Positions 31,704 to 34,282 of a DNA stretch of 41,300 bases are shown in pieces. Made by a program: the position numbers and the translations under genes. Under the pieces are notes generated by a model. It ran no database searches. It was not told the DNA's origin and saw nothing but the letters and a program-made list of their open reading frames with translations. This DNA is from Clostridia bacterium. Lineage in GTDB: Bacteria; Bacillota; Peptococcia; DRI-13; SV3-B141. The stretch covers positions 1 through 41,300 of the forward strand of contig JAHDSB010000002.1 in the NCBI GenBank assembly GCA_018433015.1, written 5' to 3'. Within the stretch, counting starts at the first letter, position 1; each line of letters begins with the position of its first letter.

Positions 31704-31904
31704 ATTTATAAAAGCTATGTTGAGCTGTAGGATAGTGATTACAGGACGGGGAAAATATACCCAAATATACGGAAAAAATGTACCTAAAAGGTGATAATAA
31801 TTGTTATATGTTTATTATAATTTAAAATATTCAGAGAAGGATAACCCCTGATTTTGTTGAAATATTACCACCAAGCACAGACAAATCAGATAGAGGAGCT
31901 AAAC

Positions 31905-32507
31905 ATGTATCTAGATATTATCGTACTGGGAGCTATTATTGGCTGGCTCTGTAAAGGGAGATTAAAAAACCTAGGAAATTTACCATTAAAGGGAATATGG
32001 CTCTTCGTTGCCTTAGGCCTAATGGAATTAGGTATGGTATTTACCCAGTCGCCGGACAGGCGTATGCTCTATCAAATTTTGATAATGGGATCAGCTGTTG
32101 TTTTATTCTTACTGTTATTAATCAATAATCGAATAGCAGGAGTAAAGATTATTACTGCAGGTTTGATACTAAACTTTTTAGTAATGGCTGTAAACGGAGG
32201 AAGGATGCCGGTAGAAGAAGGGGCGGCAGTTATATCTGGTCAAGGGGACTATTTACCGGAGCTTGTATCGGGAATAAGCAGTCGCCATTTTTTAATGACA
32301 GCAGACACAAAATTAAAGGTTTTAGCAGATATTATTCCTTTACCCCCTCCATATCCTGTACCTAGAGTGATTTCTTTAGGAGATATCTTGATATTTGCAG
32401 GCATTATTATTTTAATGACCTGGGGCATGACTAGCAAAGCTAAGAGTAAACAACCTAATTATAAAAGGATTAATGATAAAATTGTAAACCTATCTCTTTT
32501 TAAGTAA
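31905..32507 (+). CDS. DUF5317 membrane protein
   Basis: Hydrophobic protein of 200 aa with about five membrane segments. It matches DUF5317 by the central NGGRMPV motif (near residue 102) and the C-terminal PRVISLGDILIFAGIIIL segment. The function is unknown. The open frame begins at 31854, but ATG 31905 has GAGGAG six bases upstream and begins at the hydrophobic helix, so it is preferred. It lies upstream of two tandem mini-ORFs and an HD-GYP-like gene and may share their transcript, since no terminator is seen after it. Confidence 0.8.
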   Translation: MYLDIIVLGAIIGWLCKGRLKNLGNLPLKGIWLFVALGLMELGMVFTQSPDRRMLYQILIMGSAVVLFLLLLINNRIAGVKIITAGLILNFLVMAVNGGRMPVEEGAAVISGQGDYLPELVSGISSRHFLMTADTKLKVLADIIPLPPPYPVPRVISLGDILIFAGIIILMTWGMTSKAKSKQPNYKRINDKIVNLSLFK

Positions 32508-32617
32508 TAATAATTGTATTTTTTCTTTGTAAGCAAGCGGATGTGATGAAGTACAACTTGTAAAATGGGCACTTGAGTTGTATGGAACAATTAGTGCGAC
32601 CGGCCGCCCTTATAGTT

Positions 32618-32639
32618 ACCTGGAAATATTATGCCAGGT
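32618..32639 (+). other. Hairpin in the leader of the mini-ORF pair
   Basis: ACCTGG (32618-32623) pairs with CCAGGT (32634-32639). A GC-rich stretch upstream (32602-32608) could instead pair with GGTGGC (32637-32642) or GGCC (32649-32652), so two exclusive structures are possible just before the first mini-ORF SD. I do not recognise a known riboswitch class. Confidence 0.35.
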
Positions 32640-32670
32640 GGCAAAAATGGCCTTGAAAGGGGGAATAGTG

Positions 32671-32757
32671 ATGCGTAATTGGCGTATCCGTTGGGTTCTT
32701 GTCTTAACGGCGTTAGTTTCCATAGCTATGACAGCGGCTTCCAGATGGCGTTGGTAG
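32671..32757 (+). CDS. Mini-protein A (28 aa), tandem paralogue ending in SRWRW
   Basis: ATG 32671 follows an AAAGGGGG SD and encodes 28 residues: a basic Arg/Trp N-terminus, a hydrophobic core (VLVLTALVSIAMTAA) and the C-terminal SRWRW. It is nearly repeated by the ORF at 32784. Across the last 20 aligned codons, eight differences are silent and two are conservative, which indicates selection on the peptide. The layout resembles a signal peptide or a membrane-active peptide; the function is unknown. The frame is open upstream to 32533 with a TTG at 32578, but the short form is supported by the SD and by the paralogue. Confidence 0.72.
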   Translation: MRNWRIRWVLVLTALVSIAMTAASRWRW

Positions 32758-32783
32758 ATTAATAAATTTTAGGGGGAGATATT

Positions 32784-32870
32784 ATGCGTAAAATCAATGG
32801 ACGTTGGCTTTTAGTATTAACAGCGTTAGCTTCTATAGCAATGACAGCAGCTTCCAGGTGGCGCTGGTAA
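32784..32870 (+). CDS. Mini-protein B (28 aa), tandem paralogue ending in SRWRW
   Basis: Starts at ATG 32784 after an AGGGGGAG SD, 26 bases downstream of mini-protein A. Both begin with MR and share LTAL-x-SIAMTAASRWRW at the C-terminus. They differ mainly in the N-terminal eight residues (here KINGRW). The separate strong SD and identical length argue that both are translated. No family is recognised. Confidence 0.74.
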   Translation: MRKINGRWLLVLTALASIAMTAASRWRW

Positions 32871-33001
32871 AAAGATTTAATAATAAAATTACATAAAGAT
32901 GCTCACTTGAAATAATTGTTGTGATCTGTCTCATTTACTGGATAGAGAGACATGTATCATGTATAATTATTTATAGTGAGGGGGTGGGGCTCATAAAGAA
33001 A

Positions 33002-34282
33002 ATGTGGCTGAACGTAGTAAGCATCGATTTGTTGGCATTGATAGTTTTTGGTTATAGTTTGAAGAGTCCCACCATTTTTGATTTATTGTGGGGATTAATC
33101 ATTGCTATTATTTTAGCATTATCGGAACTATATCCGCTTCATATTAATGATGAGGGAGATTTAACCCTTAGCATATCCGTACATATAGCTTCTTTATTAC
33201 TTTTAGGGCTTCCGGCCACGTTAATTGGTGCGGTATTTGGGGAGATCATTTACGGTTTTATAAGTCACCAACCAAGAATAAAAGTATGTTTTAATGCAGC
33301 TCAGACCATTATTTCCTCGGCTTCAGCCTATTACTTTTTTTTGTTTATAGGGGGAGATTTCAATAGGTTAGGTTTCTTTGCCCTGTTTATTCCGCTAACG
33401 TTTATTGTAGTTAATACGTTATTAGTTGCCTGGATCTTGGCCTTATCTAATAACCAACCATTATGGGATACTTGGATCAGCCTAAATCAAAACACTGTTC
33501 AATATACTACAATTTTAGGCATCGGAGGCTTGGCTTTTGCAGGATTACTCCATAGTTACTCGTGGTTAGGGGTTATTATCGTTATAATCATGATGATTTG
33601 TTTGCGACAGGTTCTTTTTCAGGCAAGCTATAACCTTCGAACAATGAAGATCCGTTTTATGCAAACTGTGCGGGTGTTAATGACGGCACTAGAGTATAGG
33701 GATCCTTATACTCATGGACATTCCAGCAGAGTAGCAGTATGGTGTCGTAAGATTGCCAATGAAATGGGTTTAGAACCCGACGAAGTGGAACAGATACACT
33801 TAGGTGGTTTGATGCACGATGTTGGTAAAGTTGGGGTACCTGATTTTATTTTAAAAAAGCCGGGCAAATTGAGCGAGGAAGAATATGAGCAAATAAAAGC
33901 CCATACAGCCATCGGTGAGAATATCTTGCTGGAAATGGAAGGCATGGAGTACATAGCTTCCATGGCTAAGCATCATCATCTATATTATAATGGTGATCCC
34001 AGAGGGTATAATGACTCTATACCGGGAAAAGAGGCCAGCATAGGGGCTCGAATCTTATCTGTTGCTGATGCTTGGGATGCAATGACTACAAATCGTCCTT
34101 ATAGAAAATCGTTATCTGCTAAAAAGGCTGCTTCAGAGTTGGTGAAAAATAGTGGAACACAATTTGATCCCCAGGTTGTAGAGGTTTTTATAAACATTTT
34201 AAAGAAAGACAATATTATTGAGGAAAACTTTGAACAAGAAATGGATGAAAAGAAAAATAAATCAGAGGAAAATATTGTATAG
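33002..34282 (+). CDS. Membrane-anchored HD-GYP-like phosphohydrolase
   Basis: Protein of 427 aa. The N-terminal half (about 1-215) is membrane-embedded, with roughly 6-7 hydrophobic segments of a MASE-like sensor. The C-terminal half is an HD domain of HD-GYP type: ALEYRDPYTHGHSSRVA, catalytic His272-Asp273 in GLMHDVGKVGVP, KAHTAIGENIL, KHHH and ILSVADAWDAMTTNRPYRK. HD-GYP enzymes hydrolyse cyclic di-GMP or related signals. The GYP element itself is altered to DPRGYND, so the substrate may differ. The frame opens at 32921. ATG 33002 has a purine-rich stretch (GAGGGGGTGGGG) starting at 32979; GTG 32984 is an alternative. Confidence 0.87.
   Translation: MWLNVVSIDLLALIVFGYSLKSPTIFDLLWGLIIAIILALSELYPLHINDEGDLTLSISVHIASLLLLGLPATLIGAVFGEIIYGFISHQPRIKVCFNAAQTIISSASAYYFFLFIGGDFNRLGFFALFIPLTFIVVNTLLVAWILALSNNQPLWDTWISLNQNTVQYTTILGIGGLAFAGLLHSYSWLGVIIVIIMMICLRQVLFQASYNLRTMKIRFMQTVRVLMTALEYRDPYTHGHSSRVAVWCRKIANEMGLEPDEVEQIHLGGLMHDVGKVGVPDFILKKPGKLSEEEYEQIKAHTAIGENILLEMEGMEYIASMAKHHHLYYNGDPRGYNDSIPGKEASIGARILSVADAWDAMTTNRPYRKSLSAKKAASELVKNSGTQFDPQVVEVFINILKKDNIIEENFEQEMDEKKNKSEENIV

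Follow-up and report, generated by a model that had tools for sequence, protein, structure and literature searches.

Why do two similar open reading frames, each for 28 residues, lie in tandem between the genes for a DUF5317 membrane protein and an HD-GYP-like protein, and what might their products do? The question arises in a window of 41,300 nucleotides (the whole stretch of DNA that was analysed) from the genome assembly of a Clostridia bacterium. The sequence-only reading of this DNA had taken the two frames, called minis here, for paralogues kept by purifying selection, encoding a membrane peptide, a type I toxin-like peptide or a pheromone derived from a signal peptide, with a possible link to envelope or second-messenger signalling. 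The frames are:

32671-32757, plus strand: mini1, a 28-residue SRWRW microprotein, MRNWRIRWVLVLTALVSIAMTAASRWRW
32784-32870, plus strand: mini2, a 28-residue SRWRW microprotein, MRKINGRWLLVLTALASIAMTAASRWRW

Each frame is preceded by its own purine-rich Shine-Dalgarno (SD) sequence (AAAGGGGGAATAGTG-ATG for mini1, TTAGGGGGAGATATT-ATG for mini2), and the coordinates first assigned to the adjacent pair are right to the base. Their products share 22 of 28 residues, where the best of 200,000 shuffles reached 12, and a whole-genome search with mini2 retrieves mini1 (E = 1.9e-7) and no third copy in the source assembly. Over the last 20 codons the earlier count of eight silent and two conservative differences is exact, and the 22-codon core shows eight synonymous against three nonsynonymous differences, giving a pN/pS of 0.12 (Nei-Gojobori). 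With the identity of the pair and the existence of homologues elsewhere, this makes the minis real paralogues under purifying selection. Both have a basic, Trp-containing N-terminal end, a hydrophobic stretch of some 16 residues, many of them small or hydroxyl-bearing, and a Trp-Arg-Trp end. At 16 residues, counted from Trp8 to position 25, the hydrophobic core is short for a transmembrane helix; its mean KD is 2.0-2.5, with RW on one side and xWRW on the other, and the layout fits the proposed membrane-type sequence. The frame of mini1 is open upstream as far as TTG 32578 (59 residues, 32578-32757), but this extension crosses a riboswitch, and homologues give it no support.

Searches of related genomes enlarge the family to 11 copies in five genomes belonging to four families: two in the window, four in G001, three in Peptococcaceae bacterium M1_7_4_bin.22 (G008), and one each in Firmicutes bacterium UBA2598 (G118) and G156. 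The search for homologues with a conserved C-terminus, suggested at the outset, thus finds them in relatives, with the C-terminus as the most conserved part. Extending the search within the phylum led back to the genomes already sampled, and weak profile matches in G308, G374, G112, G249 and others proved, on in-frame reading, to be chance. The invariant pattern is RW..VL.A..S...T.AS.WRW (R7, W8, V11, L12, A14, S17, T21, A23, S24, W26, R27 and W28). Between genomes pS reaches 0.95 with pN at or below 0.27, so that the protein is what is kept. Conservation inside the hydrophobic core runs residue by residue, at V11, L12, A14 and S17, and its helical periodicity is not significant (P = 0.11). 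Position 25 differs among genomes and is the same in all copies of one genome (R,R; G,G,G,G; G,G,G; H; K), and the G118 member adds GPN after WRW. No match to the minis was found in Pfam, NCBIfam, PHROGs, PADLOC or the PDB. The minis belong to an unannotated family of tiny proteins that are probably embedded in the membrane.

The invariant T-x-A|S motif suggests another possible fate for the peptide. Signal peptidase I would cut within it and free an SxWRW pentapeptide (SRWRW here), whose sensor would be either the linked membrane protein or a receptor for imported peptides. By rule, the invariant small residues T21 (-3) and A23 (-1) fit this enzyme, the -2 position varies (A or V), and +2 varies between genomes and is uniform within each. 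Against release stand the conserved V11, L12, A14 and S17 of the core, unusual in a disposable signal peptide, the GPN of G118, with which the C-terminal end is not fixed, and the lack of a peptide receptor gene in the flanks that were read. Since the core is conserved residue by residue with Arg-Trp on both sides, an embedded helix making a specific contact fits better. The pheromone, the main rival of the reading preferred below, is rather unlikely; it is retained on account of the invariant T-x-A|S, the residue after the serine that varies between and not within genomes, and the use of sigma-H by phr genes. The latter, in Bacillus, were reportedly found by McQuade et al. in 2001 (as cited in PMC4147580) to be driven by sigma-H promoters.

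The neighbours of the minis offer a second line of evidence, and for both of them Pfam agrees with the first assignment:

31836..31864, plus strand: possible sigma-H-type promoter before the DUF5317 gene (one mismatch, weak; sites with up to two mismatches are frequent in the window by chance)
31905..32507, plus strand: DUF5317 membrane protein (PF17248, E 1.6e-37; SD AGAGGAG before ATG 31905)
32939..32967, plus strand: promoter-like site TGGATA-17-TATAAT (10 of 12 matches, to the consensus only; overall count near background)
32984..34282, plus strand: HD-GYP-like protein (PF13487, E 1.9e-31; start codon uncertain)

The called DUF5317 frame begins at TTG 31854, and ATG 31905 is its likely start. 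The order DUF5317-mini-HD-GYP, on one strand, recurs in all five mini-bearing genomes, with one copy in between (two in the window). A homologue of the window's DUF5317 protein occurs in 102 of 398 genomes, among which, besides the window, only G118 and G156, with a close DUF5317 subtype, carry a mini; two further mini-bearing genomes are G001 and G008. In a tree, the DUF5317 proteins of all five cassettes fall into one clade (support 100/99), and within this subtype the mini is always present. A single clade and a shared order indicate that the arrangement is a cassette inherited in distant lineages. The other DUF5317 loci inspected hold no mini, and their order is mostly HD-GYP before DUF5317: at most of them (L093-L119, L031-L042) DUF5317 lies 3′ of an HD-domain gene, so its pairing with HD-GYP is widespread without the mini. 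A large gene whose product starts MLGxxxKxxGD is often next at these loci. Upstream of the G156 cassette (L081, 10588-12125) lies a module resembling a phage lysis cassette, with Amidase_2, two small membrane proteins and a coiled-coil exported protein. A literature search for DUF5317 returned nothing.

The HD-GYP-like protein consists of a helical N-terminal half, for which no Pfam family was found, and a C-terminal HD domain. The metal-ligand motif HDVGK is kept in the cassette proteins, and HHExxDGxGYP is not matched (HHHLYYNGDPRGYND in the window, HHLYYTSGGRSYP and HHMRHDGSPRGYP in others); the GYP loop has degenerated in differing ways among the members that retain HDVGK. Given this degenerate motif, it is uncertain whether the presumed partner acts as a phosphodiesterase. 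An AlphaFold model built on a three-row alignment (pLDDT 50) was too poor to use.

Proximity to the HD-GYP gene also allows the minis to be read as regulatory leader peptides, whose translation, through the Trp and Arg codons at the end, would matter only for expression of that gene. They are the first frames after a riboswitch and ahead of the HD-GYP gene, and the gap between mini and HD-GYP is short in G118 and G156. In the window, by contrast, about 110 nucleotides separate mini2 from HD-GYP and include the promoter-like site, which may give the HD-GYP gene a start of its own, as far as a consensus match can tell. Leader peptides also accord poorly with purifying selection on residues of the whole core rather than on the terminal codons alone, and with the two or three tandem copies in G001 and G008 that have no close gene in the same direction behind them. 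This explanation is accordingly given little weight.

The conserved neighbourhood bears likewise on a small membrane-active or toxin-like peptide (a type I toxin, or a self-killing or antimicrobial RW peptide). A length of 28 residues, a hydrophobic core and Arg/Trp ends would suit such a product, and tandem copies are common at type I toxin loci. The same neighbours are nevertheless found across four families, and the minis lie behind c-di-GMP or Spo0A/sigma-H-type elements rather than an antisense RNA; the minis match no toxin family in the four profile libraries searched; phage, plasmid and viral-contig records yielded nothing relevant; and a consensus scan of 32870-33100 found no sigma-70-like site on the minus strand from which an antisense antitoxin RNA could start. 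The toxin part of the sequence-only reading is therefore left without support, and a peptide of this kind seems quite improbable.

How the minis are controlled is suggested by the DNA between DUF5317 and mini1:

32530..32614, plus strand: c-di-GMP-II riboswitch aptamer (RF01786; 68.3 bits against a gathering score of 53.5, E 7e-13 to 1e-15)
32615..32670, plus strand: putative expression platform (a strong ACCUGG/CCAGGU hairpin and the mini1 SD, in folds with and without the aptamer constraint)

The aptamer begins right after the DUF5317 stop, ends 56 nucleotides 5′ of mini1 and spans the full covariance model (1-84). It retains GAUGAAG, UGGGCACUU, GGA.C.A and GUGC.ACCGGCC, including the conserved core and the pseudoknot strands. 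Folding allows a pairing between the 3′ strand of P1, GGCCG (32602-32606), and UGGCC (32648-32652), and reveals no clear terminator and no clear sequestration of the SD. As no terminator is evident and an alternative pairing of P1 is possible, the ON polarity of the switch is putative. The source genome has two further c-di-GMP-II riboswitches, L121 (G000:C153:16157-16240) and L122 (G000:C77:554-639), in both of which a terminator overlaps the 3′ strand of P1, the anatomy of an ON switch; one precedes the gene for an SLH-domain protein and the other that for a secreted Gly/Ser-rich protein. Export of these products is a point in favour of a secreted pheromone. It would also suit minis that are small components of the envelope or surface, controlled by c-di-GMP and sporulation and tied to no particular regulatory partner, as would a peptidoglycan amidase gene beside the tandem arrays described below. 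What this last reading does not explain is why the minis are so strictly linked, in five of five genomes, to HD-GYP and a single DUF5317 clade; we consider it quite unlikely.

A confident aptamer is present at the cassette in only one of the five genomes. In G156 the whole DUF5317-mini-HD-GYP operon has in front of it an intrinsic terminator and, before that, a weak aptamer resembling c-di-GMP-II, whose 30.2 bits fall short of the gathering score. The whole-genome scan, in which only some of the first-look candidates are scored, does not list it, and so this candidate is suggestive rather than settled. Another c-di-GMP-II riboswitch, L124 of G001 (G001:C1:2531769-2531852), precedes the gene for a 66-residue protein with a Cys-rich C-terminal part (CNKLICIVKGPNIEIKCNKCKRL...); an exact repeat of this part occurs in a second frame further downstream. 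With a riboswitch directly upstream of the minis and an HD-GYP-like synteny conserved across lineages, the link to a second messenger is stronger than was proposed.

Control of a different kind appears at a second, syntenic locus, which holds three tandem minis in G001 and two in G008. Upstream of the G001 array lies a perfect sigma-H-type promoter (RNAGGAWWW-N11-RNNGAATWW, with the hexamer consensus from PMC8510167), found once in 17 kb against 0.03 expected, and a 0A box, TTTGTCGAA, found once in 17 kb against 0.17 expected (core TGTCGAA; PMC3485338). The G008 array keeps this layout with one mismatch in each element, and in both genomes a weaker, related version of the array promoter also precedes DUF5317. 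Spore photoproduct lyase, Ku and the peptidoglycan amidase Amidase_3 are encoded nearby, and four of the five mini-bearing genomes have Spo0A. The tandem arrays are not linked to HD-GYP, and no gene in the same direction follows them closely. The window itself has no sigma-H promoter (at one mismatch or fewer) and no 0A box between DUF5317 and the mini pair. A sigma-H-type promoter at the arrays, as for phr genes, is again compatible with a pheromone. Of the first proposals, then, paralogy, membrane type and the second-messenger link are supported and the type I toxin is not; the riboswitch, the wider family and the tandem arrays with their sigma-H and Spo0A elements had no place in them.

The preferred reading, to which we give about an even chance, is that the minis are single-pass membrane microproteins under c-di-GMP and sporulation control that modulate the linked membrane HD-GYP protein. 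They would act as partners dedicated to the linked membrane proteins, among which the HD-GYP-like protein, DUF5317 or both are the likeliest. In the window, where they come first behind the c-di-GMP-II riboswitch, their level would be set by intracellular c-di-GMP. The microprotein would then pack against the transmembrane region of its partner and shift, in one direction or the other, its output, which may be c-di-GMP breakdown or signalling by a degenerate HD-GYP domain, and this would close a feedback loop. In the relatives, extra tandem copies expressed from a Spo0A/sigma-H-type promoter would feed into this switch as sporulation begins. Given a family lodged between the genes of two membrane proteins linked to c-di-GMP, and here directly behind a c-di-GMP switch, the minis probably tune the choice of settled growth or sporulation. 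A bolder version, held only tentatively, makes the family the switchable subunit or the autocrine signal of a membrane HD-GYP/DUF5317 receptor. One lineage would set the dose of the microprotein through a c-di-GMP riboswitch and another through Spo0A/sigma-H, which would couple the c-di-GMP level to the sporulation decision of these Firmicutes.

Genes as short as the minis are routinely omitted from annotation, and here they make up a conserved family with fixed genomic partners, under c-di-GMP control in one lineage and beside Spo0A/sigma-H-type elements in another. In C. difficile, sporulation falls when c-di-GMP is raised by overexpressing a diguanylate cyclase, through a pathway that is unidentified (PMC8653836). 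A membrane microprotein responsive to both c-di-GMP and sporulation inputs would be a tangible candidate for a connection of this sort in the bacteria considered here. The possible targets of c-di-GMP-II riboswitches now include microproteins, and DUF5317 gains a functional context from the cassette.

Small membrane regulators and c-di-GMP-II riboswitches are each already known; searches of the libraries turned up no uncharacterised microprotein family that stands between the two and has Spo0A/sigma-H-linked paralogues. The closest parallels are small single-pass regulators of a membrane protein, such as MgrB and SafA with PhoQ and AcrZ with AcrB (PMC11539335). Like these, the minis are short and hydrophobic with charged ends, their expression appears regulated, and a membrane partner is proposed for them; unlike these, they are about half as long, occur in tandem and come first behind a c-di-GMP riboswitch, their partner is deduced from linkage, and no sequence relation was found. 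Type I toxins (Fst/Ldr, TisB-like) resemble them in size, hydrophobicity and tandem copies, whereas the minis have no family match or antisense promoter-like site and keep a conserved regulatory synteny. The pheromone reading is styled on Phr or on the enterococcal pentapeptide signals derived from lipoproteins. With Phr/PapR-type or signal-sequence-derived pheromones of Firmicutes the minis share a basic N-terminal end, a hydrophobic core, a possible signal-peptidase site with a pentapeptide, and the sigma-H-type promoter of the arrays; they differ in their conserved core, nearly invariant tail, residues after WRW in one member and lack of a visible linked receptor of the RRNPP kind. The targets of c-di-GMP-II riboswitches examined experimentally in C. 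difficile are pilin and collagen-binding surface proteins (PMC3649979). The minis resemble known RF01786 targets in having an aptamer above the gathering score directly upstream, and depart from them in that the first genes behind it in the window encode 28-residue microproteins, followed by an HD-GYP-like gene.
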